Source: Novosphingobium sp.
GTDB lineage: Bacteria > Pseudomonadota > Alphaproteobacteria > Sphingomonadales > Sphingomonadaceae
DNA length: 32,741 nt
Reading direction: 5' to 3'
Assembly (NCBI GenBank): GCA_020446505.1
Contig: JAGREN010000021.1
Location: forward strand, 1-32,741
The translations under genes and the position numbers were made by a program. Positions 2,314-28,409 of the stretch are shown in pieces (position 1 is the stretch's first letter; each line of letters opens with the position of its first letter). The notes beneath the pieces are model-generated. The model searched no databases and had not been told where the DNA came from. It saw only the letters and a list, made by a program, of their open reading frames with translations.

Positions 2314-2633
2314 CGTGAAGGGTCCAATCTAAATAATAATTAGATTTATATAAGGATTGTTGGAGTCTGTTGGTCTTGTGGAAATCGGGGAAAGCGGCCC
2401 CTTGCCCGATTTCTCCCGGCTTGAACAGGCTCTGTCCGATCCCGACTCGCGCGCCCCGCGCGTCAAGACAAGCTTATCCCCGCTGTCCCCAGCCTGTGGG
2501 CATCGCTTTCGACATGTGGGCAGTTTGCCCATCGCGGGACTGGAATCGGGCATGGAATCGAATGCCGGAGTTGTCAGTGCAATTGTCCCGTGGTTTATGC
2601 TGGCGTCTTTCCACAGGGTCTCACCACTAGCGA
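2314..2633. other. oriC: Probable chromosomal replication origin (oriC)
   Basis: The gap between divergent hemE and the PPDK-regulator gene (the RP001 family) is where the origin lies in Caulobacter and, by gene conservation, Rickettsia. Seen here: an AT-rich tract at 2328-2353; degenerate DnaA-box-like 9-mers at 2377-2385 (minus, ATTTCCACA), 2474-2482 (TTATCCCCG) and 2607-2615 (CTTTCCACA), each two mismatches from TTATCCACA; a TCCCCA element at 2486-2491, like the weak W-boxes of Caulobacter; two TGTGGG sites 20 bases apart (2495, 2515); four GANTC sites (2363, 2444, 2543, 2555); and a 9-base-arm dyad at 2381-2413. No perfect DnaA box or TTAA-N7-TTAA CtrA site is present. Genes run outward on both sides. 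Confidence 0.72.
2326..2354 (-). promoter_or_regulatory. AT-rich tract: likely origin unwinding element and hemE promoter region
   Basis: This stretch is almost entirely A/T in an otherwise GC-rich region. It contains an inverted repeat with arms AATCTAA (2326-2332) and TTAGATT (2340-2346) around a 7-base AT centre. It ends 13 bases before the hemE start, and its minus strand offers several TATAAT-like hexamers, so it may be both DNA-unwinding element and promoter. The double role is inferred from the Caulobacter origin, where a hemE promoter lies inside the origin. Confidence 0.5.
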
Positions 2634-3479
2634 ATGACTGGCGTCAATCTCCACCTCCTGTCCGATTCCACCGGCGAAACGCTGGAGATGATCGCCAAGG
2701 CGGCGCTCGCGCAGTTCGATGACACAGACGTGGTGCGCCATTTCTGGCCGATGGTGCGCTCGCAGCAGCATCTCGACCGGATCCTGGGCGAAATCACGGC
2801 CAAGCCCGGTCTGGTGCTCTACACACTCGTCAACGAAAAGACACGGTCGGCACTGGAAGAGAGCTGCAAGGCGCGCGGCATGCCTGCCGTGCCGGTGCTC
2901 GATGTCGTGACCGATGCGCTGGAAACGCTGCTCGGGCAGGAAGCCAAGGGGCGACCTGGCCGCCAGCACAAGCTCGACGATGCCTATTTCGCCCGCGTCT
3001 ATGCGATCCAGTATACCATTGCCCACGACGACGGAGTGGCATGGGAAGACTGGGAAGAGGCCGATATCGTCCTGGCCGGCGTATCGCGTACTTCCAAGAC
3101 GCCCACGAGCATCTATCTGGCCAATCGCGGCTACAAGGTCGCCAATATCCCGATCGTGGTGGAGAGCCCCCCGCCCCCGGCGCTCTATGGCCTGCGTCGC
3201 CCGCTGGTTGTCGGACTGACCACCGCGCCCGAACGGCTGGTTCAGGTCCGCCGCAATCGCCTGCTCTCGCTCAGCCAGTCGCCCGATACCGACTATGTCG
3301 ATGCGGACAGGGTTTCGGACGAAGTGAAATATGCCCGGCGCATGTTTGCCGACAACGGCTGGCCGGTGATTGACGTCACGCGGCGCTCGATCGAGGAATC
3401 GGCGGCCGCCATCATCAACCTGTTCAACGAGCGGCGCATCCAGCCGGATAGTGGGCTGGACGGTCCGGGCGCGCTGTGA
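2634..3479 (+). CDS. ppsR: Pyruvate, phosphate dikinase regulatory protein (DUF299/PPSR)
   Basis: A 281-residue bifunctional serine/threonine kinase and phosphorylase that inactivates and reactivates pyruvate phosphate dikinase (or PEP synthase) using ADP and phosphate. Visible are the N-terminal [15 protein letters not shown] block (6-20) and the P-loop-like [11 protein letters not shown] (149-159), followed by NIPIVVE and [12 protein letters not shown]. Length is typical. It is the homologue of Rickettsia RP001, the gene that flanks the alphaproteobacterial origin opposite hemE. Its TGA overlaps the GTG start of maf by four bases, so translation is probably coupled. The target dikinase is not in the window, so whether it acts on PPDK or PpsA cannot be told here. 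Confidence 0.94.
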
Positions 3480-14890: not shown

Positions 14891-16414
14891 ATGGCAGACA
14901 TGGTGACGATTCGCGAGCAGGACCTGATCGACAGCGTGGCCGATGCGCTGCAGTTCATCAGCTTCTATCATCCGATGGACTATATCCGGGCACTCGGCGA
15001 AGCCTACGAGGCGGAGCAGGGCCCGGCGGCGAAGGACGCGATTGCCCAGATCCTCACCAACAGCCGCATGTGCGCCGAAGGGCATCGCCCGATCTGCCAG
15101 GATACCGGCATCGTCAACGTCTTCGTCAAATGGGGGCAGGACTGCCGCCTCGAATCGGACATGTCGCTGCAGGAGGTCGTCGATGAGGGCGTGCGCCGGG
15201 CCTATAACAACCCGGAAAACAAGCTGCGCGCCTCGATCCTGACCGACCCGGCGTTTACCCGCCGCAATACCAGGGACAATACGCCGTGCGTGCTTTCGGT
15301 CGAGATGGTGCCGGGCAGGACCGTGTCGATCGATGTCGCGGCAAAGGGCGGTGGCTCGGAGAACAAGTCGAAGTTCAAGATGATGAACCCGAGCGACAAC
15401 ATCGTCGAATGGGTGCTGGAGATGCTGCCGCAGATGGGTGCTGGCTGGTGCCCGCCCGGCATGCTCGGCATCGGTATCGGCGGAACGGCGGAACACTGCG
15501 TCAAGCTCGCCAAGGAAAGCCTGATGGACCCGATCGACATGGGCCAGCTCAAGGCGCGCGGCCCGCAGAACGATATCGAGGCGCTTCGCATCGAGATCTT
15601 CGACAAGGTCAATGCGCTCGGCATCGGCGCGCAGGGGCTGGGCGGCCTGTCGACCATCCTCGACGTGAAGATAAAGGACTGGCCCTGCCACGCGGCAGGC
15701 AAGCCGGTAGCCATGATCCCGAACTGTGCGGCGACCCGGCACGCACACTTCACTCTCGACGGATCGGGACCGAGCTATCTCGAAACGCCCGATCTCGATA
15801 GCTGGCCTAAAGTGCAGTGGGAGCCGGATGCGGCGGCCAAGCGAGTCAACCTCGATACGCTCACTGCCGAGGAAGTGCGCAGCTGGAAGCAGGGCGACCG
15901 GCTGCTGCTCAGCGGCTCGATGCTGACCGGGCGCGACGCCGCGCACAAGCGCATCCAGGACATGCTTGCCAGGGGCGAGGAGCTGCCCGTCGATTTCAGG
16001 GGGCGTGCGATCTACTACGTCGGCCCGGTCGATCCGGTGGTCGGCGAAGTCGTCGGTCCGGCTGGTCCGACCACGGCGACCCGCATGGACAAGTTCACCG
16101 ACATGATGCTCGAGCTCGGGCTGCTGGCGATGATCGGCAAGGCCGAGCGCGGGCAGGGCGCGGTTCAGGAGATCGCGAAGCACAAGGTGGCCTATCTCAT
16201 GGCCGTGGGCGGAGCCGCCTATCTGGTGGCGCGCGCGATCCGCGAGGCAAAGGTCGTCGGTTTCGAGGATCTGGGCATGGAAGCCATCTACGAATTCACT
16301 GTCGAGAACATGCCGGTGACGGTCGCGGTCGACAGCGAGGGCAACAATGTCCACACGCTCGCCCCGGCGCACTGGAAGGACAAGATCGCAAAGGAACGGC
16401 TGCTCGCCGATTGA
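14891..16414 (+). CDS. Class I fumarate hydratase ([4Fe-4S])
   Basis: A 507-residue oxygen-sensitive fumarase that hydrates fumarate to malate in the TCA cycle. Likely cluster cysteines are Cys69 (RPICQDTG), Cys187 (GWCPPG) and Cys279 (PNCAATRH), with spacing close to that in E. coli FumA. The KGGGSENKSKF segment and GPAGPTTATRMDKF are conserved. The ATG at 14891 begins MADMVTIREQDLIDSV; the open frame extends far upstream without conservation. It diverges from the pcm-like gene. Its cluster requirement ties it to the Fe-S genes in this window. Confidence 0.95.
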   Translation: MADMVTIREQDLIDSVADALQFISFYHPMDYIRALGEAYEAEQGPAAKDAIAQILTNSRMCAEGHRPICQDTGIVNVFVKWGQDCRLESDMSLQEVVDEGVRRAYNNPENKLRASILTDPAFTRRNTRDNTPCVLSVEMVPGRTVSIDVAAKGGGSENKSKFKMMNPSDNIVEWVLEMLPQMGAGWCPPGMLGIGIGGTAEHCVKLAKESLMDPIDMGQLKARGPQNDIEALRIEIFDKVNALGIGAQGLGGLSTILDVKIKDWPCHAAGKPVAMIPNCAATRHAHFTLDGSGPSYLETPDLDSWPKVQWEPDAAAKRVNLDTLTAEEVRSWKQGDRLLLSGSMLTGRDAAHKRIQDMLARGEELPVDFRGRAIYYVGPVDPVVGEVVGPAGPTTATRMDKFTDMMLELGLLAMIGKAERGQGAVQEIAKHKVAYLMAVGGAAYLVARAIREAKVVGFEDLGMEAIYEFTVENMPVTVAVDSEGNNVHTLAPAHWKDKIAKERLLAD

Positions 16415-16475
16415 GCAGCCGAACCGCAGTCGTTTTGCTGGCCATGCCCGGCATCAGGCAGTAGTCTGGCCGTTC

Positions 16476-16742
16476 ATGGCCATCATCATGCTCTTCGCGC
16501 TGGGCGTTGCCAATTTCGCCATGCACAAGGCAGTGATGGAAAGCGGCCACCCGATGGTTGCGCGCACCACGGTCTGGTTCGGGCTGATGGGCGGCAAGCT
16601 GGGCCTTGCTGTCGAATTCATCGTCCTGCTGGGCGCGATGCTGATGGTCGACGCGGGCATGACCGGGTGGACCTGGGCCTATATCGTCTACAGCCTGCTC
16701 AATGGGTTGTCGGCCTGGCTTATCCTTTCGGGCCGGGTCTAG
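16476..16742 (+). CDS. Small membrane protein, unknown function
   Basis: An 88-residue protein with three hydrophobic stretches, about 1-15, 38-58 and 63-86, and a short charged segment HKAVMESGHPMVART between the first two. It begins 61 bases after the fumarase stop. The ATG at 16476 lacks a good ribosome site, so the start is uncertain. The next gene starts 25 bases after it. It is recognisable only as a conserved-looking hypothetical membrane protein; no function is proposed. Confidence 0.6.
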   Translation: MAIIMLFALGVANFAMHKAVMESGHPMVARTTVWFGLMGGKLGLAVEFIVLLGAMLMVDAGMTGWTWAYIVYSLLNGLSAWLILSGRV

Positions 16743-16767
16743 GGGAACCTTGGGGCACTCCATTCGT

Positions 16768-17631
16768 ATGACCGGAATGGCAAAGAACAATCTCATCTGG
16801 CTCGTATACAACCGCGCAAGCGGCAGTAACGACGAAGCCTCCCTCGCTGCTCTCGAAGACGCCCTGCACCAGGCAGGAATGACCATCGCGCAACGGACCT
16901 GCTTCCCCGAAGAGCCCGCGCCGGTCGCAGAAGACCTCATGGGAGAGGATATCGGCACCGTCTGCGTCTTTGCCGGGGACGGTACGATCCATACTGTCGT
17001 GACGGGTCTGTTCGGCTGGCCGGGCCGCGTGCTGGTGCTGCCGGGCGGCACCATGAACCTGCTTTCGCATCAGCTTCATGGCGAAGCGACGCCCGTCGAG
17101 ATCGTCGCTCGTCTCGCCGGGGGAGGTGGCCGGACGACGCGACCGCCGATCCTCGAAGGCCGCTACGGCTATGCCTTGACCGGAGCTCTGGCCGGGCCCG
17201 GCACGGAATGGAACAACGCCCGCGAAGCGATGCGGCATAGCGCAATCGGCGAACTGGTCAGTTCGGCAGCAGGAGCGGCAAGTCAGTCCGTTTCCGGCGA
17301 CCGTGCCGTGCTGCGGGGGTTTGAAGACGTGCGTGCCGAAGGCTATGCCGCCATCTCGATTACCCCTCAGGAGGCAGGCATCAGCGTCAAAGGCTACTAT
17401 GCCGACGATCTCGGCGACTATCTCGGACAACTTGCCGCGATCGTGACGGGCGATTTCCGCAACGGTCCGCACGACCGGCTCGGCACTATGCCCAAGGTCG
17501 ACATTGCCAGTCTTGGCGGAGAGCCGCTCGGCCTGCTGATGGATGGCGAGCCGCATCAAGGGCAGGCAAGCGAGTCATTCCGGATAGCGATCTGCGAAGT
17601 CGATCTGATCGCGACTCTCGACGATGCGTGA
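16768..17631 (+). CDS. Diacylglycerol kinase-like lipid kinase
   Basis: A 287-residue protein with a diacylglycerol kinase catalytic domain (YegS/LCB5 superfamily). The N-terminal WLVYNRASGSND carries the nucleotide-site NP/SGS-type segment. The glycine-rich catalytic loop is VFAGDGTIHTVVTGL (68-81), usually GGDGT in the family, so one Gly is Ala. LPGGTMNLLSHQL follows (91-103). The end of the protein is inside the next gene by eight bases. ATG 16768 or ATG 16777 may be the start; neither has a strong ribosome site. The substrate lipid is unknown. Confidence 0.78.
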   Translation: MTGMAKNNLIWLVYNRASGSNDEASLAALEDALHQAGMTIAQRTCFPEEPAPVAEDLMGEDIGTVCVFAGDGTIHTVVTGLFGWPGRVLVLPGGTMNLLSHQLHGEATPVEIVARLAGGGGRTTRPPILEGRYGYALTGALAGPGTEWNNAREAMRHSAIGELVSSAAGAASQSVSGDRAVLRGFEDVRAEGYAAISITPQEAGISVKGYYADDLGDYLGQLAAIVTGDFRNGPHDRLGTMPKVDIASLGGEPLGLLMDGEPHQGQASESFRIAICEVDLIATLDDA

Positions 17632-18502
17632 TCCCGGACAGGCAGGCGCGGGCGAGATCAGGATATTCCACCTGAGCGACATCCATTTCGGTCTGGTGGA
17701 CGCTGCCGCGATTGCCTGGGTGCAGGAATGCATCGCGCTGGAAAGGCCCGATGCCGTGGCGATCACGGGCGACCTGACGATGCGCGCACGCCACCGCGAA
17801 TACGGGGCGGCAAATGACTGGATCGGGTCGCTGGAAGTTCCCGTGACGGTCAACATCGGCAATCACGACATGCCCTATTTCAACCTGATCGAGCGGTTCG
17901 TGGCACCATACCGGCGCTACCGGGCGATTCATTCGATGGTCGAGAGCGAGGTCGACCTGCCGGGGCTCGCCATCGTGCCGCTCAAGACGACGGCGCGGGC
18001 GCAATGGCGGCTCAACTGGTCGAAGGGATGGATCACTGGCGCGGCGCTCGCCGAGACGCTCGCGCACATCGACGCTCTGCCCGAAGGCACGCGGGTGGTC
18101 GTTTCCGCGCATCATCCTCTGGTCGAGACCGGCACGCGGGGCACGGCCCTGACGCGCGGTGGCTCGCACGCGCTTGAGGAACTCGCCCGGCGCAAGGTGC
18201 TGGCCGTCCTGTCGGGCCATGTGCACGACCCGTTCGATCTGGTCGAGGAAACTGCGGCGGGGCCGGTGAGGATGATCGGGGCGGGCACGCTGTCGCAACG
18301 CATCCGGTCAACGCCGCCGAGCTTCAACGACATAAGGATCGCAGGCGATACGCTGCGCGTCGAAGTGCGCAACCTGCAGCGGGTGGCGACACCCGACATG
18401 CAGATCGATGACGTGCCGGAAGACGCCATGCCGCCGCGTGAACCGGGCGAACCCGTCTCCCATGTCGCTACGATTCCGGCCGAGGATCCCCCCGTCTACT
18501 GA
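17624..18502 (+). CDS. Calcineurin-like metallophosphoesterase
   Basis: A 292-residue phosphoesterase. All metal ligands of the family are visible: Asp19 and His21 (LSDIHFG), Asp50 (TGDLT), Asn80-His81-Asp82 (GNHD), His163 (SAHHPL), His199 and His201 (SGHVHDPF). It resembles the class III cyclic-nucleotide phosphodiesterase/CpdA group and lipid pyrophosphatases, without deciding between them. The C-terminal 40 residues are Pro-rich and probably flexible. It overlaps the lipid kinase gene by eight bases, so the two are made together, which hints at a role with phospholipid or lipid phosphate. Confidence 0.85.
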   Translation: MRDPGQAGAGEIRIFHLSDIHFGLVDAAAIAWVQECIALERPDAVAITGDLTMRARHREYGAANDWIGSLEVPVTVNIGNHDMPYFNLIERFVAPYRRYRAIHSMVESEVDLPGLAIVPLKTTARAQWRLNWSKGWITGAALAETLAHIDALPEGTRVVVSAHHPLVETGTRGTALTRGGSHALEELARRKVLAVLSGHVHDPFDLVEETAAGPVRMIGAGTLSQRIRSTPPSFNDIRIAGDTLRVEVRNLQRVATPDMQIDDVPEDAMPPREPGEPVSHVATIPAEDPPVY

Positions 18503-18512
18503 CGCACCCCGC

Positions 18513-18549
18513 AAGCAAAAGGCCCGCACCGATTGCTCGGGCGGGCCTT
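18513..18549 (-). terminator. Intrinsic terminator for the DUF2807 gene
   Basis: AAGGCCCGC (18519-18527) and GCGGGCCTT (18541-18549) form a nine-base-pair stem around a 13-base loop. Read on the minus strand the stem ends in CCTTTTGCTTGC, a short T-run, so it ends the transcript of the minus-strand gene that stops at 18569. The plus-strand phosphoesterase stops 16 bases before the stem and may use it too. Confidence 0.7.
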
Positions 18550-18568
18550 CGCGGGGGGCTCGTGGCGA

Positions 18569-19273
18569 TCAGTAGGCGTGTTTTACGTCACCGATCCCGT
18601 TGATTGTGCTGTTCAGCTTCGCCGGCTTGGTGTGCAGCGTGACGTCGCCTGCCCCATTGATCTCAAGATCGACGATGCCCTTGGCCGAGAGCTCGATATC
18701 GCCGGCCCCGTTGATCTCGACGCTGGCGTCCGTCACCTCGACATTCTCGAAGTCGAAATCCGCGGCACCATCCGATTCGAGCCGCAATTTCGCGATCTTC
18801 CCCGTCGCCGTGACATCGGCGGCGCCGGCCGATTGCACTTCGAAGTTTTCCTGATCGAGATCGAAAAGTTCGACATCGGCTGGCGCATCGAGATGCAGGC
18901 CGAGCAGCCTCGGCGCCTTTATGACGACCGAAAGCGAGGCGTGCTTTGCCTTGCCTCCTTTTGAAAAGCCAAGCTTGCCATTCTCGTAGACGAGATCGTC
19001 AATCGCTTCCTGCGGCCCCTCGACTTCCATCGAGGCGGTATCGCTGCGCTCGAAGCGGAGATCCACCGGCATGTCGATGACGAGCATCTTTGCAGCGTCG
19101 AATTCGAATTGCCGGGTCGTTGTCGGCCCTTCGTATTCGTCGCCCAGGACAATTACATGCCTTTCCTCGAAAGCCTTGCGCAATGCCGGGCCGCCGATGG
19201 CGACTGCCGCGCCGATCGAAACAAGGGCGAGCATGGCGGCGCTGACCGCGACGATGAGGAGTTTCCTTATCAT
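18569..19273 (-). CDS. DUF2807 (GIN domain) exported protein
   Basis: A 234-residue protein with an N-terminal signal or anchor helix (about 4-26) and a C-terminal beta-repeat region of the DUF2807/GIN type, with repeated INGAGDI/INGAGDV/INGIGDV and SDGAADF, SAGAADV turns (about 140-230). These right-handed beta-solenoid-like repeats suggest an extracytoplasmic adhesin-like or sensor domain. It starts 12 bases after the HAAS gene and belongs to the padR-HAAS-DUF2807 set. Biochemical role is unknown. Confidence 0.82.
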   Translation of the reverse strand: MIRKLLIVAVSAAMLALVSIGAAVAIGGPALRKAFEERHVIVLGDEYEGPTTTRQFEFDAAKMLVIDMPVDLRFERSDTASMEVEGPQEAIDDLVYENGKLGFSKGGKAKHASLSVVIKAPRLLGLHLDAPADVELFDLDQENFEVQSAGAADVTATGKIAKLRLESDGAADFDFENVEVTDASVEINGAGDIELSAKGIVDLEINGAGDVTLHTKPAKLNSTINGIGDVKHAY

Positions 19274-19285
19274 GTTGCCTGCTCC

Positions 19286-19855
19286 TTATACGTCGTTCTT
19301 GCCGATGGCTGGCTGGATCACCCGATAGTGCAGGCGTCCGAACCAGATCGTGGCATTGATGAGGCCGATGCTGACAAGGGTCAGTATGGAACCGATCGCA
19401 ATCGCGACGCCCATGACGCCAAGACCCATCAGGAAAGCGACCATGCCGCCTCCGGGAAAGCCGGCGAACGGCCCCACGATCATCATCGCGCCGCCTGCTA
19501 CGAACAGCCCGAAACAGGCGGCATAGAAAGCCACAACGAGCCCGAGCACCGACAGGAAGATCGGCAGCAGGATCAGGATGTCCAGCGTGGCAAGGCCCAT
19601 GAAGCCGATGACGGCTGCCCAGGCCGCGGACGGCGAGCGATCCTCTCGCCATTGCCTGACGCCCGATTCGAGCCTTAGTTCCCGTGCAAGGCGGCTGGGA
19701 TTTCCAAGCGCCTCTGCGATCTCGATTTCCGAGCGGCCTTCTTCCATGCCGGCGTCGAAATGCGCCTCGTAATCGGCGACGATGTCGTTCTGCTCGGCAG
19801 CGGGCATCCCGCTCAGTCCGCTTCTGAGGCGGCGCAGGAATTCATTGCGTGTCAT
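19286..19855 (-). CDS. HAAS/DUF1700 membrane protein
   Basis: A 189-residue protein. The N-terminal cytosolic HAAS-type helical domain is MTRNEFLRRLRSGLSGMPAAEQNDIVADYEAHFDAGMEEGRSEIEIAEALGNPSRLARELR (quoted in part as family pattern: MTRNEFLRRL to GNPSRLARELR). It is followed by about four hydrophobic spans (about 80-180) rich in Gly/Ala. ATG 19855 has GGAGGG five bases upstream and overlaps the padR end by 14 bases. HAAS proteins typically sit beside PadR regulators, where they are thought to couple a membrane signal to the regulator. Confidence 0.82.
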   Translation of the reverse strand: MTRNEFLRRLRSGLSGMPAAEQNDIVADYEAHFDAGMEEGRSEIEIAEALGNPSRLARELRLESGVRQWREDRSPSAAWAAVIGFMGLATLDILILLPIFLSVLGLVVAFYAACFGLFVAGGAMMIVGPFAGFPGGGMVAFLMGLGVMGVAIAIGSILTLVSIGLINATIWFGRLHYRVIQPAIGKNDV

Positions 19856-20207
19856 CATTTCCCTCCGCTTGCGCGCCAGCGTTTTCTTTCCCGGATAACA
19901 GGGCTTCCACGGCTTCCACGAATTCGCGCCATTCGCTCGCCTGAGCATCGAGGCGCTGACGACCGGCATCGGTGATCGCGTAATACTTGCGTGGCGGGCC
20001 GGAGGGCGATTCCTCAAGGTAGGTCGAGACGAGCCCCTCACCCTGCATGCGCCGCATCAGCGGGTAGATCGTGCCTTCGCCCATATCCACGGCTGCGGAG
20101 AGGCGGCTGGCTATCTCGTAAGCGTAGCTGTTGCCTCTCGCGAGGAGTGCCAGGACGCAGAGTCCCAGCACCCCCTTCTTGAGTTGGACTTCGATACCTT
20201 CTGCCAA
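19842..20207 (-). CDS. PadR-family transcriptional regulator
   Basis: A 121-residue winged-helix regulator. The PadR core is LKKGVLGLCVLALLARGNSYAYEIASRL, then EGTIYPLMRRMQGEGLVSTYLEESPSGPPRKYYAITDAGRQRL (winged helix about 8-85), followed by a short C-terminal dimerisation helix WREFVEAVEALL. The start is TTG 20207, well supported by AGGAG seven bases upstream. It leads the HAAS and DUF2807 genes with overlaps or very short gaps, so it likely controls them. It is about 66 bases downstream of urcA on the same strand. Confidence 0.9.
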   Translation of the reverse strand: MAEGIEVQLKKGVLGLCVLALLARGNSYAYEIASRLSAAVDMGEGTIYPLMRRMQGEGLVSTYLEESPSGPPRKYYAITDAGRQRLDAQASEWREFVEAVEALLSGKENAGAQAEGNDDTQ

Positions 20208-20232
20208 GTTCCGGCTCCTCGTGAAGCCCTGA

Positions 20233-20254
20233 GCGGGCCGCTTGTGCCGCCCGC
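20233..20254 (-). terminator. GC-rich hairpin between urcA and padR
   Basis: GCGGGC (20233-20238) and GCCCGC (20249-20254) pair around a ten-base loop in the 66-base gap. No T-run follows. It could end the urcA transcript partly, or tune expression of padR downstream. Confidence 0.35.
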
Positions 20255-20273
20255 CCTCGGGAATTCCGTGGCG

Positions 20274-20606
20274 TTACGCGCCGTCGCTGCCGCTGTCGAT
20301 GATGCGGGCGAACTGCGGCTCGATCTGACGCATCGCGCTTTCGTAGCATTCCTTCTGCTGGTGAGAATGGAGGCGCGTGCCAGTCACAGGTGCCCTGTCG
20401 AGACCGCAGGCGGCGCGGGCCGCCCGTTCGATCCGGCGGGTCAGTTCAGCCTTGCCCTCGGCACTCTTCAGATTGAGGTCCGAATAGCGGACTTCGACAG
20501 TGCTGCCCTGTTCGGGGGTGGCGGCGAAACTCGGCGGTGTCATTGCGCACAGCGCCACGGTAGCGGCGACGGAGGCGATAGCGGCGATTACAGTCTGCTT
20601 GCTCAT
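20274..20606 (-). CDS. UrcA family exported protein
   Basis: A 110-residue protein with a signal peptide (about 1-28, cut near SFAA) and the UrcA family core VEVRYSDLNLKSAEGKAELTRRIERAARAACG (about 37-68), a second cysteine in QQKECYESAMRQI. UrcA proteins are small periplasmic proteins common in Sphingomonadales and Caulobacterales; the molecular role is unknown. Two cysteines (Cys67 and Cys87) could form a disulfide. ATG 20606 has GGGG seven bases upstream. A good promoter lies about 60 bases upstream. Confidence 0.86.
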   Translation of the reverse strand: MSKQTVIAAIASVAATVALCAMTPPSFAATPEQGSTVEVRYSDLNLKSAEGKAELTRRIERAARAACGLDRAPVTGTRLHSHQQKECYESAMRQIEPQFARIIDSGSDGA

Positions 20607-20666
20607 TTCAATTCCCCTTCATTTTCCCTGGCCGTCATCCGCGACTCGGTGCCGGCCAATGGCCAC

Positions 20667-20695
20667 TGTATATGGCAAGGTAGTGTGTAATGCAA
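20667..20695 (-). promoter_or_regulatory. Promoter of urcA
   Basis: On the minus strand TTGCAT (20690-20695) and TATACA (20667-20672) are separated by exactly 17 bases, close to the consensus for a housekeeping sigma factor. The start point would fall near 20660, giving a leader of about 54 bases. The 17-base repeat array lies immediately upstream. Confidence 0.55.
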
Positions 20696-20753
20696 GATAC
20701 CATGTGGTGATAAATAGCATGCGGTAAATGATACCGATCATAACATGATATCG
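20684..20753. repeat. Array of imperfect 17-base repeats upstream of urcA
   Basis: Units begin at 20684, 20701, 20718 and 20735, each 17 bases apart, sharing GTGGTGATAAAT/GCGGTAAATGATAC-type sequence and GATAC or GATAT ends. A perfect 5-base-arm palindrome CGGTAAATGATACCG sits at 20722-20736. The spacing and AT-richness suggest operators; the match among units is partial. Confidence 0.4.
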
Positions 20754-20806
20754 GGCGATGATCTGCGGGGGATGGTCGCGGGAAATCAGGGATTTAGGCG
20801 ATGCAA

Positions 20807-20839
20807 AGCAAAAGGGGCCGCAGTTGCCTGCGACCCCTT
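20807..20839 (-). terminator. Intrinsic terminator of the rplM-rpsI operon
   Basis: AAGGGGCCGCAG (20812-20823) and CTGCGACCCCTT (20828-20839) pair over 12 positions. In the minus-strand RNA the single mismatch becomes G-U, the loop is the stable tetraloop GCAA and the stem is followed by UUUUGCUUU. It lies about 42 bases past the rpsI stop. Confidence 0.85.
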
Positions 20840-20851
20840 GGGCTGTTGCAA

Positions 20852-20876
20852 TGCCGGACAAGCCGGCAAATTTTTT
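20852..20876 (+). terminator. Plus-strand intrinsic terminator facing rpsI
   Basis: TGCCGG (20852-20857) and CCGGCA (20863-20868) with loop ACAAG are followed by AATTTTTT (to 20876), a complete intrinsic terminator on the plus strand. No plus-strand gene lies upstream of it, so it either blocks antisense transcription into rpsI or ends an unannotated short RNA. Confidence 0.6.
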
Positions 20877-20880
20877 CGAA

Positions 20881-21405
20881 TCAGCGCTTCGAGAACTGGA
20901 AGCTGCGGCGTGCCTTGGCGCGGCCATACTTCTTGCGTTCCACGACGCGGCTGTCGCGGGTGAGGAAGCCGGCAGCCTTCACTGGCGAGCGCAGTTCCGG
21001 CTCGTACTTGGTCAGCGCCTGCGCAATGCCGTGCTTCACGGCACCGGCCTGGCCCGAAAGACCGCCGCCCTTGACCGTGGCGACGACGTCGTACTGCTCC
21101 TCGCGGCCAGCCACCTTGAACGGCTGGTTGATGACGAGACGCAGCGACGGGCGTGCGAAGTACACTTCCTGATCGCGGCCATTGACGGTGACCTTGCCGC
21201 TGCCGGGCTTGAGCCAGACGCGAGCGACGGCATCCTTGCGGCGGCCGGTGGCATAGGCGCGGCCCTGGCCGTCCAGTTCCTGCGGGCGCAGCGGCACGCT
21301 GGGCGTTGCAGGAGCGGTCGGCATTTCGGGCGCAGCGGCCGGAGCTTCGCCGGTCAGGTCCTTCAGATCGGACAGGCTATCGACGGTATCGGTATCGGAC
21401 ATCAT
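20881..21405 (-). CDS. rpsI: 30S ribosomal protein S9 with N-terminal extension
   Basis: A 174-residue S9. The conserved body begins at [21 protein letters not shown] (about residue 47) and ends with the usual QFSKR tail that reaches the P-site. The first 45 residues are an extra acidic, Ala/Pro-rich tail ([34 protein letters not shown]), compared with about 130 residues for E. coli S9. Such extensions occur in alphaproteobacteria. ATG 21405 overlaps the rplM stop (ATGATG); the second ATG at 21402 is equally possible. Confidence 0.97.
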
Positions 21406-21881
21406 GCGCCCACCTTGTTCTTGCGATTCATGGAAGCCACGTCGAGCGGCTGGGGCTGCGTTCCGGCATGGGGATGCTCGGCGCCTGCATAGAGGTGCAG
21501 GGCGCGCATCTGCGCACGGCCAAGCGGACCGCGCGGGATCATGCGTTCAACCGCCTTTTCGAGCACGCGCTCGGGGAAGCGGCCGTCGAGAACCTTCTCG
21601 GCAGTCACGCCCTTGATGCCGCCGGCATAGCCGGTGTGCTTGTAATAGGTCTTCGTGCCGCGCTTGTTGCCGGTGAAGCGCACCTTGTCGGCATTGATGA
21701 CGACAACGTGATCGCCGCAATCGACGTGCGGGGTGAAGCTCGGCTTGTGCTTGCCGCGCAGGAGATTGGCGACAACCACGGCGAGACGACCGACGACGAG
21801 GCCTTCGGCGTCGATCAGGTGCCAGTTCTTTTCCACCTCGGCCGGCTTGATCGACCGGGTGACCTTGCTGAGCGCCTTCAT
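21402..21881 (-). CDS. rplM: 50S ribosomal protein L13
   Basis: A 159-residue L13. Conserved blocks are [64 protein letters not shown] and [44 protein letters not shown] 21881 is set by AAAGGAG about eight bases upstream; the longer open frame before it is not conserved. It forms the usual rplM-rpsI pair, overlapping rpsI. Confidence 0.97.
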
Positions 21882-21999
21882 GGCCACTCCTTTCCAATAA
21901 AATTCAAAAGCGCCGCCTGCTCGCCAGGGGCGATGCAGCGGGACGGCGGCCCAATCGTCAAATTCGAGCGGCAAGTCAAGCGAAACCGGGCCATACAGA

Positions 22000-22019
22000 A
22001 GAGGTAAAATAATACCTCT
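22000..22019. promoter_or_regulatory. AT-rich inverted repeat upstream of rplM
   Basis: AGAGGTA (22000-22006) and TACCTCT (22013-22019) form a perfect 7-base-arm dyad around AAATAA. It lies 16 bases beyond the stop of the upstream minus-strand gene and about 120 bases before rplM. A low-GC stem without a T-run favours an operator rather than a terminator. Confidence 0.4.
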
Positions 22020-22035
22020 AGACTGGCGAGCGCAC

Positions 22036-22788
22036 CTATTCCTTGCGTGTCAGCGTCCAGGTTTCCTCGGTAATGCGCGTCGAATCGCCCAGGCGGGTCG
22101 TAACGCTGCGCTGCAATCTGAACAGCAATCCGGAACCTGAGTCGACCTCGGCGTCGATCTCTATCGAAACCTGGCCGGTCTTTCCTCCCGGCAGCGGCAT
22201 GACGTTGGTGTTGCTGTGCTTGCCGGGCGCGGGCCTGAACAGGTCTTCCGGCCAGGCTGTCTGGATCGGGTTTGCCGTGGCCTGCCCGATAAATGCATCG
22301 GCGTCGCGGGCTTCGGCTGCGGGAAGACTGGCCGGGACGAGCGCCTGCGCCTGCCTGCCTGCCTCCGCTGCGAAGGATTCCTGGTCCCGCTCGCCGGCGG
22401 ACAGGAACCTCCCCTGTGCGTCGATCCGCATCGGGAACATGCCGGTGTCGGGTCGGGCGCGCTCCATCGCCATGAGCGCTTCGAATTGCCTTGGGGCTTC
22501 GATATCGACACCGATCAGCTCGCCTTCGATCCGAAACCCGGTTCCCTCGGGCACGAAGTGGATCCTGTAGCTGCGTGCGGTTGCGATGGTAATGCCGCCG
22601 GGCAAGGGGCGGCGCAGGGTACGAGTGAGCACCATTGGCTCGGACGACGGCACGAAGGGAGAGACGGCGCTCGCAACCGCTTCGACCGGAGCGAGAGACA
22701 GGCCCGCGAGAGGCAGCGCTGCAGCGGCGCTGGCGAGCAACACGGTACGCATTGCACCAATGCCGGATCCGATCTCCGGGCCAATCAT
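22036..22788 (-). CDS. Exported protein of unknown function
   Basis: A 250-residue protein with an N-terminal hydrophobic segment (about 13-40: [20 protein letters not shown]) that looks like a signal peptide. This suggests the true start may be ATG 22752, with ATG 22788 an alternative. The rest is a beta-rich globular domain with [29 protein letters not shown] and a C-terminal [39 protein letters not shown]. No family is recognised with confidence. It lies between ctaA and rplM on the same strand. Confidence 0.65.
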
Positions 22789-22907
22789 GGCTTGCCCCTG
22801 TTCATGCAGACGAGATGCCCCCTGCCCCTCGCAAATCGCACGACTTGCCCGCTCGTGCGCTAGGTATTGATACGCAGGAAGTGGATTCCGTCAAGAAACC
22901 ACTGCGA

Positions 22908-23987
22908 TCAGGCGTCTACCGCGCGACCGTCTCTGCGACCGGCGACATGCGCGCCCCAGACCGTCGCTGCGACGACAAGAGCGCCGGTGAACTGGTGCAG
23001 CACGGCCAGCCACAGCTCCATCCCTGACCAGATCGTCGAGATACCCAGCAGGATCTGCACGCCGAAAGCCGTGTGGATCGCGATCGAGACATCGCGCCTG
23101 CCCAGCGCGCGGACTCTCCTCGACAGCACCACCAGCACCGCGACGACGACGAAGGCCCACCAGCGATGGATGAAGTGGACGAGAAACGGGTCGTTGAACA
23201 AGGCATGCAACGCGCCTTGCGACCAGTCGATCCCGTCGGGAAAGAACGAACCCTGCATCAGCGGCCACGCATCGGCCCGGAACCATCCCGCCCCGGCAAC
23301 ATATCCGGCGCGCATTCCCGCGACCAGGGCTCCGAACAGGACCTGCACGGCAACGGTGCCGATCGCCAGCGCGCCCAGTGGAGACGAACGCGCCGATGCC
23401 CGCCCTTCCCTGACGCCGAGCACGTCGAGCGCCGTCCAGACCAGCGCGCCTAGCGTAATCAGGGCGACGCCGAGATGGGTGGCGAGCCGGATGTGGCTGA
23501 CCTTTACATCTGCGCTCAGGCCCGAAGTCACCATCCACCAGCCAACCGCGCCCTGAAGCCCGCCGAGCGCGAGCAGGGCCAGCAGCCGCGGCTTGTAGCC
23601 GCCGGGAATGGTCCGCCGCATCCAGAACACGGCCAGCGGCAGGGCAAAGGCCACACCAGCCAGCCGCGCGAGCAGGCGGTGGACCCACTCCCAGAAGTAG
23701 ATGAACTTGTACTGCGCGAGAGTCATGCCCGCTGGTCCGTTGACCTCGACGTACTGCGGGATCTGCTTGTAGGCTTCGAACTCTCGCTGCCACGCTGCTT
23801 CGCTGAGCGGGGGGATGACTCCGGTGACGGGCTTCCACTCCGTAATGGAAAGGCCCGACTCGGTCAGCCGGGTAATTCCGCCGACCACGAGGATCAGGCA
23901 GACCAGTCCAGCCACGGCAAGGAGCCACCGGGCGATGGCAGGCGTATCGTCGCGTGTGCCGATAAGGTGTGCGGGCCGGGCCTTCAT
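22908..23987 (-). CDS. ctaA: Heme A synthase (COX15/CtaA)
   Basis: A 359-residue inner membrane enzyme that oxidises heme O to heme A for cytochrome oxidase. About eight membrane spans are visible in two four-helix bundles. Conserved parts include GGITRLTESGLSITEWKPVTGVIPPLSE, YKFIYFWEWVHRLLARLAGV, and HLGVALITLGAL, with further His in IHRWW and LHQFTGAL. ATG 23987 has AGGGG six bases upstream; the longer frame starts with TTG. Length is standard for the proteobacterial type. It diverges from the MerC-like gene. Confidence 0.95.
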   Translation of the reverse strand: MKARPAHLIGTRDDTPAIARWLLAVAGLVCLILVVGGITRLTESGLSITEWKPVTGVIPPLSEAAWQREFEAYKQIPQYVEVNGPAGMTLAQYKFIYFWEWVHRLLARLAGVAFALPLAVFWMRRTIPGGYKPRLLALLALGGLQGAVGWWMVTSGLSADVKVSHIRLATHLGVALITLGALVWTALDVLGVREGRASARSSPLGALAIGTVAVQVLFGALVAGMRAGYVAGAGWFRADAWPLMQGSFFPDGIDWSQGALHALFNDPFLVHFIHRWWAFVVVAVLVVLSRRVRALGRRDVSIAIHTAFGVQILLGISTIWSGMELWLAVLHQFTGALVVAATVWGAHVAGRRDGRAVDA

Positions 23988-24075
23988 GTGCGCCCCTCTA
24001 GCCAAGCCTGCGCGCGGCGCAAGGGATCAAAGGGAAGACCTTGCGCGATGATACAACATAACATACCTGACCTCT

Positions 24076-24447
24076 ATGCGCCGCGCTCTTCTCTCGATTC
24101 GGGATCGCTTCGATCGTGCAGGCATAGTCCTGTCCGGGCTTTGCGCGGTTCACTGCGTGCTCGGCATCCTGATTGTCTCGGTGCTCGGGCTAGGCGGCGG
24201 TGCTCTGCTTGCGCCGCAAATTCACGAGATCGGCCTCGCGCTTGCCGTTGCGGTTGGAACGATCGCGCTTGGAGCCGGTTTCGCCAGGCACGGCCGCCCT
24301 GCTCCGCTCGCTCTCGGCGCGATCGGCCTGTCGCTCATGGCCATGGCCCTGCTTGTCCAGCACGGGCTTGGCGAAGCTGTGCTGACGATTTGCGGCGTGT
24401 CTCTTGTCGCAGCAGCGCACGTCTGGAACTTGCGCCGCGCGTATTGA
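24076..24447 (+). CDS. MerC-like inner membrane protein
   Basis: A 123-residue protein with four membrane segments and the MerC-type start [23 protein letters not shown], where the Cys-x-x-x-Cys pair (LCAVHC) is the mercuric-ion-binding motif of that family. No mer regulon genes (merR, merA, merT) are nearby, so mercury transport is not implied; sphingomonads often carry such lone MerC-domain proteins of unknown role. It starts 88 bases after ctaA on the opposite strand. Confidence 0.8.
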
Positions 24448-24463
24448 ACGCTATCTGCGGCTC

Positions 24464-25447
24464 ATGTCCGCAGAACTCTCTCTCATCGTCAACGGCGAAC
24501 CGCGACGCGCACCCCACGGTGCGACGATTGCCGATCTTGTCGAGTCGCTCGAACTCAATGCGAAGAAGGTCGCGGTGGAACGCAATGGCCTGATTGTCCC
24601 GCGCTCCACTCTGGCCGATGTGTTGCTGGGCGACGGTGACGAACTGGAGATCGTGCATTTCGTCGGCGGTGGGAACAGCGAGGAAACCTGGACCGTTGCC
24701 GGACGCACCTTCCGCTCGCGACTGATCGTCGGCACCGGCAAGTACAAGGACTTTGCCCAGAATGCCTCTGCGCTTGAGGCCAGTGGCGCGGAAATCGTCA
24801 CGGTCGCCGTGCGCCGCGTCAACGTTTCGGACCCCAAGGCGCCGATGCTGACCGACTACATCGACCCCAAGAAATTCACCTACCTGCCGAACACGGCCGG
24901 GTGCTTCAACGCCGAGGAGGCGATCCGCACCCTTCGCCTCGCGCGCGAGGCGGGCGGCTGGGATCTGGTGAAGCTGGAAGTGCTGGGAGAGGCTCGCACG
25001 CTCTATCCCGACATGCGCGAGACCTTGAAGGCTACCGAGGTGCTGGCAAGCGAAGGCTTCCTGCCGATGGTCTACTGCGTCGACGACCCCATCGCGGCGA
25101 AGCAGCTTGAGGAAGCGGGCGCCGTGGCCGTGATGCCGCTCGGCGCTCCCATTGGTTCGGGCCTCGGTATCCAGAACCGGGTGACGATCCGCCTGATCGT
25201 GGAGGGCGCGAGCGTGCCGGTGCTGGTCGATGCCGGCGTCGGCACGGCCAGCGACGCAGCCGTGGCGATGGAGCTTGGCTGTGACGGGGTGCTGATGAAC
25301 ACTGCCATTGCCGAAGCGAAAGACCCGCTGCTGATGGCGCGGGCGATGAAGCGCGCGGTGGAAGCCGGACGCGACGCCTATCTCGCGGGGCGCATGGCGA
25401 CGCGCAAATATGCCGATCCGTCGAGTCCCCTCGCGGGCCTGATCTGA
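24464..25447 (+). CDS. Fused sulfur carrier ThiS and thiazole synthase ThiG
   Basis: A 327-residue protein joining two thiamine enzymes. Residues 1-70 are ThiS ([20 protein letters not shown] to HFVGGG), residues about 76-327 are ThiG ([73 protein letters not shown]). ThiG builds the thiazole phosphate from 1-deoxyxylulose 5-phosphate with sulfur from ThiS thiocarboxylate; the Gly-Gly end that must be activated is internal here (GGG, 68-70). No thiamine riboswitch or other thi gene is visible. A fused form is known in some proteobacteria. Confidence 0.9.
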
Positions 25448-25572
25448 TCCCGCGACGCAAGCGCGCCAAACTACGCGCAAATACCGATCATGGTTAACGA
25501 GTTGGAAACCAAGTTGTGATGATCTGTTGCTGTCGGACGAAAGGTCTGGCGGTCTAACAGGGGACACGCGAC

Positions 25573-26100
25573 ATGGGGCAACTTCGCACCGCCTCGCTGA
25601 TGATAAACGAACTGCGCGAATTCGCGAGCTTCAGCCCTTGCGAGCAGCGCTACATCAAGCGCAGCATCGATATCGGGCTCGGCAGGCAGGACGCCTTCAA
25701 GCTCTGGGCGCGCGATGCATCCGAGATTTCCTCGATCCGCTCGCAATATGTCGCCTATCAGGACCTCAAGGGTCTGCGGGCCTCGGTCCCCGCCGAAACG
25801 GGACTCGAAGGCATCGAGGACTTCATGGGCAAGCTGGTGCGCATGGCCGCATTCGATCTTGCGCAAGACAAGCTTGAGAGCTTTTCCTCGTTCCGCTTCC
25901 TGTACGAACGCATTCTTGGCGCGAAGATCCGCCCCTGGCTGCCCGCAGCATTTTGCGCATCTTCGGCCCTGCCGCAGATTCGGCCCGACCGCCGCAAGTG
26001 CCTGCTTCACTCGATCAGCGAAGCTGCAGCGACTGCGCCGGGCTGGTCCGATTCGGAGCCTTCCTTCTTCCCGGAATGGATCGAGAAGGAAGTAGCCTGA
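25573..26100 (+). CDS. Uncharacterised 175-residue protein
   Basis: A soluble protein with helix-rich N-terminal half (LREFASFSPCEQRYIKRSIDIGLGRQDAFKLWARDASEISSIRSQ) and no signal peptide. It has an FRFLYERILGAKIRPWLPAAFCASS segment and an acidic-hydrophobic end. I do not recognise a family. ATG 25573 has AGGGG upstream. It stands alone between the thiS-thiG fusion and a PilZ gene, which starts 99 bases after its stop. Confidence 0.62.
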   Translation: MGQLRTASLMINELREFASFSPCEQRYIKRSIDIGLGRQDAFKLWARDASEISSIRSQYVAYQDLKGLRASVPAETGLEGIEDFMGKLVRMAAFDLAQDKLESFSSFRFLYERILGAKIRPWLPAAFCASSALPQIRPDRRKCLLHSISEAAATAPGWSDSEPSFFPEWIEKEVA

Positions 26101-26199
26101 CCAAGCCAAAGTCGCATTTCGCGCACAGGTTCAATGCAGATTTTAAGAGGAAAGTGACCCGATCCGGTCACAAATGGCCGGAGCAGGGAGTGCCGTACA

Positions 26200-26484
26200 T
26201 TGGCGGATCGCAAGTATCTCAGTGCCCAGTGCAGGACACCGCGCGGCGGCATAAACGAAGTTCACATCCTCGATCTGTCGGAAGTCGGCTGCCTTATCGA
26301 CAAGCGGATGATCCCGATGAGCGAGGGCGACCGGATTCTCATCAAGATGGAAGGTCTTGCCTTCCTGCCGTCATCGGTCCTGTGGGTCGAGGAAGGCGAT
26401 GCCGGCCTTGCCTTCGAGCAGCCGCTCTATGGTCCGGTGCTCGAGCATCTCAACCGTTGCTTTACGGTAGAAGCGACTGACTGA
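26200..26484 (+). CDS. PilZ-domain protein
   Basis: A 94-residue single PilZ-type domain: DRKYLSAQCRTPRGGINEVHILDLSEVGCLIDKRMIPMSEGDRILIKMEGLAFLPSSVLWVEEGDAGLAFEQPLYGPVLEHL (pattern summarised: HILDLSEVGCLI and VLWVEEGDAGLAFEQPL). Canonical PilZ proteins bind cyclic di-GMP through an RxxxR and a D/NxSxxG; here the DLSEVG segment is present but the RxxxR part is weak, so binding is uncertain. The only in-frame start is TTG 26200, with AGGGAG nine bases upstream, since a stop lies at 26155. Confidence 0.68.
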   Translation: MADRKYLSAQCRTPRGGINEVHILDLSEVGCLIDKRMIPMSEGDRILIKMEGLAFLPSSVLWVEEGDAGLAFEQPLYGPVLEHLNRCFTVEATD

Positions 26485-26508
26485 CCTTTGGTAGATGCGC
26501 ATCGGAGT

Positions 26509-26536
26509 TTTCGCCACACTTCCCCGTGGGGCGAAA
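26509..26536. terminator. Hairpin between convergent PilZ and fadD-like genes
   Basis: TTTCGCC (26509-26515) and GGCGAAA (26530-26536) are perfectly complementary, extended by CAC/GTG after one mismatch, around a six-base loop. It lies between the PilZ stop and the fadD-like stop and suits both strands as an end point. No T-run beyond three or four bases. Confidence 0.5.
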
Positions 26537-26540
26537 TCCA

Positions 26541-28343
26541 TCAACTGCGATAAAGGGCGTCGAGCCGCTCACCATAACGCTCGACCAGCTTGTGCCGCCG
26601 GACCTTGAGGCTGGGCGTCATTTCCTCGTTCTCGATAGTGAAGGGCTCGTCGGCAAAGGCGAACTGGCGGACCTTCTCGATCACCGAAAGCTGCGCGTTT
26701 ACCCGGTCGATCGCCTCGCGGACCGCTGCGCGGAACTCGGCATTCTCTTGCAGGGCAGCCATATTGCCGGTCTCGTCGTGGGATTTCGCCCACTCCTGCG
26801 CCCATTCGTCATCGGGCACGATCAGGCCGACGATGTGCGGGCGCTTGTCGCCAAGCACCATGGCCTGCGCAATCTCGGGCTGGAGCGTCAGCATCGACTG
26901 GATCTTCTGCGGAGAGACGTTGTCGCCCTTGTCGTTGACGATCATGTCCTTCTTGCGGTCGGTGATCTTGATCCGGCCTTTCTCGTCGAGATGGCCGATG
27001 TCGCCGGTGTGGAGCCAGCCGTTCTGCAGTGCGCGCGCGGTTTCGGCATCGTTCGCCCAGTAGCCTTGCGTGACAAGCTCGCCGCGCACGAGCAGTTCGC
27101 CGTCCTCGGCGATGCGCAGTTCCACGCCGCGAAGAGGCGCGCCGACGGTGTCCATGCGGATGCCGTCACGAGGTCGATTACAACTGATGACAGGAGCGGC
27201 CTCGGTCTGGCCGTAGCCCTGCAGCAGGGTCAGCCCCATAGCGTCGAAGAAGGTGCCGATCTCCGGGCTGAGCGGGGCGCCGCCCGATACGAGCGCCTTG
27301 ATCCGCCCGCCGAATTTCGCCCGGATTTTGGGCCGTAATGCCTTGCCGACTATGAAATCGAGCGGGAAGTCGATGATCCTGCGCTTGCCCGCCATCTTCC
27401 GTCCGCCAATGGCGACGGCAAGGTCCAGCAGCTTACCGGGCAGCTTGCCCTGCTTCTCGACCTGCTTGATGATCCGCGTGCGCAAAAGTTCGAACAGGCG
27501 CGGAACCACCACCATGATGGTTGGCCGCACGTCCTCGATATTGGCGGAGAGCTTTTCGAGGCTTTCGGCATAGTAGATCTGCGCGCCCAGCCCGATCGGC
27601 AGGAACTGTCCGCCGGTATGCTCGTAAGCATGGCTCAGGGGCAGGAACGATAGGAAGACTTCCTTCTCCCAGCCGAAGTCCTCTGCGATGATCCGAGCAG
27701 CGCCATCGACGTTGCACAGGATCGCACCGTGATGCTGGCGCACCCCGCGCGGCGCGCCGCCGGTTCCGCTGGTATAGATAATGCAGGCAAGATCGGTGCG
27801 CCCGATCGCGGCGATCCGCGCATCGACTGCCGAACGGGCCTGTGCTGCGTCGCCTTCGAGCAGATCGGACCACTGATGCCACGAGAAGCTGCCTTCCTGA
27901 GCATGGGGAATCGCTTCGATAGAAAACAGCATCTCCGCGGTATTGGTCTGGGTCAGTGCCGGAATAAGCGGTTTGGCGAGCTTCGCGCTGGAAACGATCA
28001 CGGCGCGTGCGCCCGAATTGTTCAGAATGTGCAGGTGATCGCGCTCGATATTGGTCGTGTAGGCCGGCACCGTCACGCAGCCCGCCGCCATGATGCCGAG
28101 ATCGGCGAGGCACCATTCGGGCCGGTTTTCGGAGACCAGCATCACCCGGTCGCCCGGACCCAGCCCGCGCGCGCGCAAGGCTTCGGCGATCAGGCAAACC
28201 TGTCGGGCAGCCTCGGCCCAACTGAGCGATTGCCAGACCTTGTCCCGCCTTGCCCAGAGCATGGGCTCGTCACCCAACCGGTCAGCCCGGTCGAGAAACA
28301 GCGAGACGAGATTGGGGCTGGTGTCGAAATCAGAAAGCTGCAC
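26541..28343 (-). CDS. AMP-dependent long-chain fatty acid-CoA ligase
   Basis: A 600-residue ANL-family ligase that activates carboxylic acids, probably long-chain fatty acids, through an acyl-AMP. The AMP-binding signature is YTSGTGGAPRGV (190-201). Further motifs are LQGYGQTEAAPVIS, HTGDIGHLDEKGRIKITDRKKDMIV and the C-terminal lysine region DNVSPQKIQSM. The start is GTG 28343 with a modest ribosome site. It is downstream of ggt on the minus strand with 66 bases between, where a hairpin lies. Substrate specificity is not set by sequence alone. Confidence 0.9.
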   Translation of the reverse strand: MQLSDFDTSPNLVSLFLDRADRLGDEPMLWARRDKVWQSLSWAEAARQVCLIAEALRARGLGPGDRVMLVSENRPEWCLADLGIMAAGCVTVPAYTTNIERDHLHILNNSGARAVIVSSAKLAKPLIPALTQTNTAEMLFSIEAIPHAQEGSFSWHQWSDLLEGDAAQARSAVDARIAAIGRTDLACIIYTSGTGGAPRGVRQHHGAILCNVDGAARIIAEDFGWEKEVFLSFLPLSHAYEHTGGQFLPIGLGAQIYYAESLEKLSANIEDVRPTIMVVVPRLFELLRTRIIKQVEKQGKLPGKLLDLAVAIGGRKMAGKRRIIDFPLDFIVGKALRPKIRAKFGGRIKALVSGGAPLSPEIGTFFDAMGLTLLQGYGQTEAAPVISCNRPRDGIRMDTVGAPLRGVELRIAEDGELLVRGELVTQGYWANDAETARALQNGWLHTGDIGHLDEKGRIKITDRKKDMIVNDKGDNVSPQKIQSMLTLQPEIAQAMVLGDKRPHIVGLIVPDDEWAQEWAKSHDETGNMAALQENAEFRAAVREAIDRVNAQLSVIEKVRQFAFADEPFTIENEEMTPSLKVRRHKLVERYGERLDALYRS

Positions 28344-28354
28344 GTTCAGGCCTG

Positions 28355-28373
28355 TCCCGGTATTTTTCCGGGA
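28355..28373 (-). terminator. Hairpin between ggt and the fadD-like gene
   Basis: TCCCGG (28355-28360) and CCGGGA (28368-28373) pair around a seven-base AT loop, 12 bases before the GTG start of the next gene. It could end the ggt transcript in part or act as a control site for the ligase gene. Confidence 0.35.
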
Positions 28374-28409
28374 ATTTAGAGGCCAGTTCTTCCCGCCACA
28401 ACCCTGTCG

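Follow-up and report, generated by a model that had tools for sequence, protein, structure and literature searches.

The 320-bp gap between hemE and the PPDK/PpsR regulator gene (ppsR) of this Novosphingobium sp. is very probably its chromosomal replication origin. The window (the whole stretch of 32,741 nucleotides that was analyzed) is contig C9 of a draft genome comprising 3.18 Mb in 178 contigs. Because this assembly is too fragmented for global skew, relatives were used. A preliminary description of the sequence had placed the origin between hemE and the RP001/PPDK-regulator gene, and that placement is now supported by the skew, the parS sites and the box conservation of relatives. The location of the origin is already known for the family (PMC4741004), and our result confirms a family rule while providing a well-delimited target of 320 bp.

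The limits of the gap are exact, with hemE (1288–2313) on the minus strand and the regulator gene (2634–3479) on the plus strand, in agreement with the divergent gene direction described earlier. Within the gene order proposed at that time (rho-hemJ-hemE // ppsR-maf-aroE-coaE-dnaQ), hemE and the PPDK regulator scored above NCBIfam cut-offs, hemJ and maf matched with scores below theirs, and rho, aroE, coaE and dnaQ were named from translations alone. The divergent hemE/regulator arrangement was present in 28 of 30 loci from the class Alphaproteobacteria (the best 30 returned, our own included). All gap elements listed in the preliminary description were recovered upon rechecking the sequence, either in place or a few bases off. 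For example, the AT-rich tract was given as 2328–2353, and the AT-richest 26-mer of the window begins at 2326 (24 of 26 positions are A or T, a value reached by starts 2326 to 2328 alone). Feature coordinates are collected in Table 1.

Table 1. Features of the hemE/ppsR gap (window coordinates; proposed functions are putative).
Feature	Position	Strand	Basis
hemE/ppsR gap, proposed chromosomal origin	2314–2633		GC-skew switch and nearby parS sites of relatives; conservation of the gap
AT-rich tract, proposed duplex unwinding element	2326–2353		AT-richest 26-mer; AT-rich stretch at hemE end of aligned gaps
Degenerate DnaA-trio-like stretch, GANTC 2363–2367 inside	2354–2376	+	TTG TTG at 2357–2362, then frame break
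DnaA box 1 (ATTTCCACA), putative, nearest AT-rich tract	2377–2385	−	TCCAC core in 77/77 relatives
Conserved block TGCCCGATTTCTCCC	2403–2417	+	Genus-set gap alignment
GANTC (CcrM) site GACTC, conserved CGANTC block	2444–2448		Genus alignment, motif scan
Weak DnaA-like cluster TTATCCCCG...TCCCCAGCCTGTGGG, W-box-like, putative	2474–2500		Block partly conserved in genus alignment
Two GANTC sites (2543–2547, 2555–2559)	2543–2559		Motif scan
Promoter-like TTGTCA-17-TTTATG, probably for ppsR	2571–2599	+	TTGT-17-GGTTTAT spacing in 72/78 gaps
DnaA box 3 (CTTTCCACA), putative, at expected ppsR transcription start	2607–2615	+	TCCAC core in 73/77 relatives

The position of the GC-skew switch was computed directly from relatives. 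For G005, a complete chromosome from the same genus, 40 stretches of 20 kb were sampled. Skew was positive in 18 of 20 stretches on one side (mean +0.039) and negative in 17 of 20 on the other (mean −0.026), such that 35 of 40 had the expected sign. The best symmetric split put the origin within 45 kb of the gap, and the cumulative minimum over a contiguous 200 kb around the gap fell 3.1 kb from it. On the positive side, the two stretches of wrong sign lie past dnaA, at distances of 541 and 639 kb from the gap. In G027 (same genus, 20 stretches, completeness of the contig not established), the local minimum was 0.3 kb from the gap and nine of ten stretches on each side had the right sign. Ten stretches each were sampled in G040 (4/5 and 5/5 as expected) and G049 (5/5 and 5/5), which represent other families of the order and for which resolution is only about 150–225 kb. 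Thus the skew check that had been suggested gave a switch at the gap in G005 and G027 and a coarsely consistent result in G040 and G049. For the genome under study, synteny with G005, in which the two are some 350 bp apart, places contig C141 (reversed) next to the left end of C9. Over the resulting 50 kb, the minimum was at window position 1338, ∼1 kb from the gap, with mean skew of −0.026 on C141 and +0.011 to the right of the gap. Keto (GT) skew was rejected as a locator, since its minima within 200 kb were 83 kb (G005) and 22 kb (G027) off the gap and disagree with GC skew.

Each of the six relatives searched (G005, G027, G040, G049, G054 and G059) has a cluster of parS-like sites at a distance of about 5–16 kb. 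The clusters lie on the hemE side of the gap, as read from the locus in five cases and inferred for G049 from gene direction assuming a circular record. Three parS-like sites are carried on C141, some 9–11 kb from the gap if the contigs are joined as in G005. A few two-mismatch parS-like sites were also present elsewhere in G005, G040 and G049, and the reversed parS pattern also matched, three times in G054 and with a single hit in both G040 and G049.

In many bacteria oriC is located at dnaA, and DnaA can regulate promoters. It is therefore conceivable, though very unlikely in our estimation, that the origin is beside dnaA and that the gap is only a conserved divergent promoter region under DnaA regulation. 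A promoter-like element with fixed 17-nt spacing does lie upstream of ppsR, and the G005 stretches just beyond dnaA (541 and 639 kb) are negative before the sign turns positive again. But dnaA is 434 (G005), 575 (G027), 437 (G040), 329 (G049), 81 (G054) and 91 kb (G059) from the gap, assuming circular records, which argues against a dnaA-linked origin; the skew switch occurs at the gap in G005 and G027 and within about 150–225 kb of it in G040 and G049. Moreover, toward dnaA every one of the five G005 stretches located 52–443 kb from the gap is positive, which places the main switch before dnaA. The Sphingomonadales are described as not conserving dnaA near ori, with parAB suggested as an anchor (PMC8116508).

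We give still less weight to an origin that lies outside the gap but close to it, on the hemE side in the rho-parAB segment. Skew minima resolve to a few kb and fall 3.1 kb (G005) and ∼1 kb (our own 50 kb) off the gap, and parS is on the hemE side, both of which such a location would accommodate. Against it, the conserved DnaA boxes and the adjoining AT-rich tract sit in the gap, the box scan on the hemE side being limited to the window.

Conservation of the gap was set against that of the regions upstream of rho, ptsN and sleB, which were compared for conservation and GANTC only. The genus set was built from the best 80 of 580 loci, which are hence close relatives, and includes a few loci named Erythrobacter or Qipengyuania. 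Gaps were obtained from 77 loci (L057, L066 and L088 were dropped because they contain no usable hemE), and the window brings the set to 78. Mean identity of the gap to the window was 59%, with 25% of columns at least 90% conserved, compared to 20% and 0 in shuffles. The corresponding values were 52% and 17% for rho (70 loci), 26% and 0 for ptsN (74 loci), and 50% and 18% for sleB (64 loci), where sleB may include coding sequence. The gap is the most conserved of the four regions compared, by a margin that is not wide. The block TGCCCGATTTCTCCC is well conserved in the genus set and matches none of the motifs tested. The Caulobacter RNA CcnA is encoded in Cori. No Rfam match to known structured RNAs was found in the gap at E up to 1 in 2000–2900, a result that does not exclude an unlisted small RNA.

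Three DnaA-box-like 9-mers with two mismatches had been reported and were found at 2377–2385 (−), 2474–2482 (+) and 2607–2615 (+), as were the TCCCCA element (2486) and the TGTGGG repeats (2495 and 2515). These degenerate boxes adjoin the AT-rich tract. Sites of this quality are not enriched over the window as a whole (37 versus 32.4 ± 5.5 in shuffles), and the gap is the only place in the window where three cluster within 320 bp (8 of 3243 overlapping stretches, with starts from 2301 to 2371). No box with fewer than two mismatches occurs in the gap of the window. The absence of a perfect box, which had been read as a sign of low-affinity DnaA binding, is real and also usual for the set: perfect TTATCCACA is present in the gaps of 6 of 77 relatives, and 66 of 77 have a box with one mismatch or none. 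Across relatives the core is kept and the 5′ half is variable, and TCCACA is the 6-mer with the top z-score in the genus-set gaps (252 versus 14.5 expected). Low-affinity binding is accordingly plausible.

GGTTTAT is retained in 75 of 77 relatives, and TCCAC follows it after 10–11 nt in 73 of 78 gaps. From these patterns we infer that the TTGT-17-GGTTTAT pair is probably the ppsR promoter. The succession of this pair and DnaA box 3 (2571–2615) suggests that DnaA could regulate ppsR transcription.

The four GANTC sites noted previously in these 320 bases begin at 2363, 2444, 2543 and 2555. This count alone is weak evidence (P = 0.035 by shuffling and 0.062 with a first-order Markov null). For the genus set of 78, the mean is 5.24 sites per gap (range 2–12, window 4) versus 1.30 in shuffles, or about four-fold. 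Density in these gaps is 15.3 per kb, compared to 2.5 per kb for whole loci and 2–4 per kb for the three control regions. GANTC is also the most enriched of the 16 words of the form XYN-rc(XY), at 3.4-fold over the Markov null. In 58 of 78 gaps, a site precedes box 1 by at most 30 nt. The genome under study encodes a CcrM-type RAMA domain and GcrA. A broader statement, that GANTC is dense in all alphaproteobacterial origins, was rejected on densities of 6.1 per kb in the class (3.5 shuffled) and 3.7 per kb in the order (3.1 shuffled). One gap of 457 bp from another family of the order (L181, G040:C1:435700–439600) contains 13 GANTC sites, while two other gaps of that family (L183 and L189) contain one and none; L181 looks like an independent gain.

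The enrichment of GANTC in the gap across the genus may be new, as no GANTC-enriched sphingomonad origin was described in the accessible portions of the open literature searched. A role for GANTC methylation at this origin is a hypothesis. E. coli oriC carries clusters of Dam GATC sites and is associated with SeqA. The gaps of the genus set may likewise represent an origin enriched in a methylation motif, the motif in this case being GANTC for CcrM. SeqA and hemimethylated GATC are mentioned in PMC10225481. The Caulobacter origin contains several GANTC sites, and deletion of ccrM did not disturb initiation (PMC3973325). In Agrobacterium, CcrM affected ori2 and not visibly the DnaA-dependent ori1 (PMC11514494). 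Neither Caulobacter nor Agrobacterium ori1 showed timing of initiation by CcrM at a DnaA-dependent origin, and a GANTC-dense origin would reopen that question.

B. subtilis DnaA, starting from a box, assembles along trinucleotides of sequence 3′-GAT-5′. According to one review, the end bases of a trio may vary and the middle base must be A (PMC6727663). A published origin search uses NAN, and its authors suspected deviant trios that lack the middle A (PMC8287927). The rule of that search (at least three NAN trios no more than 16 nt from a box with at most two mismatches) finds no match in the window, where the longest NAN run at box 1 is one. The trio-like stretch of the window occupies the same place as arrays of TNG in other Alphaproteobacteria, although its own longest run is two. 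To describe these arrays, two further sets of gaps were used. The order set holds 20 gaps of 19 genera, drawn from 24 genomes of the same order (G049, G052 and G053 were left aside, and one further genome gave no match). The class set holds 27 gaps: 57 genomes, our own among them, were sampled, 39 had the regulator gene, and the best 30 loci included 28 with divergent hemE, from which our own was omitted. One genome of the class set (G070) belongs to the family of the window.

Runs of at least three TNG on the hemE-to-ppsR strand were present in 16 of 27 class gaps and 9 of 20 order gaps, versus 1 of 27 and 0 of 20 on the other strand. Expected numbers from 200 shuffles were 2.9 (class) and 1.7 (order) on average and 9 and 5 at most. 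In total, there are 25 arrays in 47 gaps, and eleven gaps of each set have no such run. TGTG is found within 22 nt after the array in 20 of the 25. Middle bases were G 25, A 21, T 18 and C 0 in the class and T 16, A 14, G 10 and C 0 in the order; note that trios of one gap, as well as related genomes, are not independent. Middle C was absent from all 25 arrays, while 38% (class) and 50% (order) of shuffled arrays also lacked it. TNG is the most common of 16 XNY words in the class set (the next three each reach 10/27); in the order set, which is AT-rich, ANA is equally common. An automatic script mis-chose boxes in several gaps, and hand-set anchors were therefore used for the order set. With these, the first-position G run was 3.95 versus 2.37 ± 0.19 and the third-position T run 3.80 versus 2.44.

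The genus set is an exception. Runs of at least three TNG occurred in 14 of 78 gaps (3 of 78 on the other strand), and 9 of 45 middle bases were C, which goes against the exclusion of C there. Its G-register signal was 3.33 versus 2.51 ± 0.10 (69 distinct sequences).

Several other measures were rejected. The middle-A (NAN) rule gave mean longest runs of 1.70 against a null of 1.81 in the order (no enrichment) and 1.77 against 1.55 (sd 0.08) in the genus (slight enrichment). With automatic box choice, which is wrong in some order gaps, at least three NAN trios were reached in 16 of 78 gaps of the genus and 5 of 18 of the order. Period-3 power of G was 1.74 in the order (shuffled mean 1.01, largest 1.81) and 0.62 in the genus (1.03), values affected by several mis-chosen boxes and the dropping of two order gaps. 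Counting G alone yielded mostly noise, with runs of at least four in 27 of 27 class gaps and 15 of 20 order gaps compared to 86% and 53% in shuffles; by this count, middle C is merely depleted (22 of 159 in the class and 8 of 81 in the order).

E. coli DnaA binds TTGT in the unwound region (PMC10316083). Because TTG repeats contain TTGT, a simpler reading is that part of the arrays consists of TTGT-type sites. No description of an alphaproteobacterial trio code was found in the accessible portions of the open literature searched.

The B. subtilis DnaA structure shows the amine of the middle base in contact with Asn187 and the guanine in contact with Arg202 and Glu228; a middle A or C works, and G or T works poorly (PMC10721633). 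We compared 36 alphaproteobacterial DnaA proteins (our own, those of G005 and G027, four others from the order, and 29 from class members), of which 33 were aligned and three (L285, L293 and L304) were read by eye. The position of Asn187 is occupied by Tyr in 26, Phe in 4, Val in 2, and Ile, His, Asn and Arg in one each, Val being present in the DnaA of the genome under study. The Arg202 position is Lys and the Glu228 position is Glu in 36 of 36. Fragments of the T. maritima and A. aeolicus proteins have Asn and Gln, respectively, at the Asn187 position. The sole Asn-bearing DnaA of the 36 is L302 (G115), and the gap of that genome (L261) is without a TNG run of three. Thus an amine-demanding residue has mostly been replaced in a class where the middle base varies. 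On sequence comparison, loss of Asn and a variable middle base together constitute one contrast between lineages, at most a candidate covariation. A divergent DnaA encoded by L304 (G063:C7) carries the Arg. In the same genome, no hemE match was found upstream of the regulator gene within locus L271, and its origin may be elsewhere.

Our tentative proposal, to which we assign somewhat less than an even chance, is that Alphaproteobacteria use 3′-GNT-5′ (N being A, G or T and not C), matched by the loss of Asn, and that in Novosphingobium the array has decayed further, frequently with GANTC within or next to it, so that opening would come under cell-cycle methylation control. Both the trio code and the density of methylation sites may be novel, and both are clearer in relatives than in the window. 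If the changed code were true, the published middle-A motif rule would not hold for many organisms of an entire class, and the way in which DnaA reads single-stranded DNA could be tested cleanly with one residue and one base position.

Computation gives the skew position in relatives together with the anatomy of the gap and its conservation; in the following scheme, we infer that DnaA binds, in what order the steps occur, and what methylation and the promoter contribute. DnaA would bind boxes 1 and 3 as well as the intervening weak sites, and then polymerize from box 1 over the trio-like stretch into the AT-rich tract. Opening of this tract would permit helicases to load in both directions, and ParABS, working from the parS cluster ∼9–11 kb away on the rho side, would move the sister origins. 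CcrM sites may make the gap sensitive to methylation state, and box 3, overlying the ppsR start, may couple initiation to ppsR transcription.

Parts of this arrangement are known from other systems. The predicted oriC of Sphingopyxis granuli TFA, from another genus, is likewise near hemE and has intergenic conserved putative DnaA boxes and a DUE; parS, GANTC enrichment and a trio code are not mentioned in the accessible portion of that report (PMC4741004). Hyphomonas neptunium, also an alphaproteobacterium, has its origin close to hemE and a parAB operon ∼7 kb from hemE. There GC skew was ambiguous and the position was measured by marker frequency (PMC6650430), whereas skew is the main evidence here. 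Caulobacter crescentus Cori shares the hemE neighbourhood, weak DnaA sites, an AT-rich region and several GANTC sites (PMC4468827, PMC8959179; GANTC, PMC3973325), but unlike the gap it has five full CtrA boxes and two stronger DnaA boxes. The resemblance to Cori drawn in the preliminary description, which includes the position between hemE and the RP001 homologue, ends at the CtrA sites: TTAA-N7-TTAA is absent from the gap of the window (two places match with two mismatches), and TTAA-N6/7-TTAA occurs in the gap of 1 of 77 relatives. The basal unwinding system of B. subtilis presents the same order of box, short spacer, trinucleotide array and AT-rich tract (PMC8287927, PMC10721633). Alphaproteobacterial arrays retain the 3′-G and 5′-T with a variable middle base, whereas the published rule requires A, and the array of the window is degenerate.

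Outside of the gap, synteny with the 60 kb of G005 compared ends at ∼16.4 kb of the window (the remaining stretch being 16410–32741). Positions 32066–32741 match G005 in inverted orientation, which suggests a rearrangement. The highest AT skew of any 1-kb step in the window (+0.21) is at 23001–24000.
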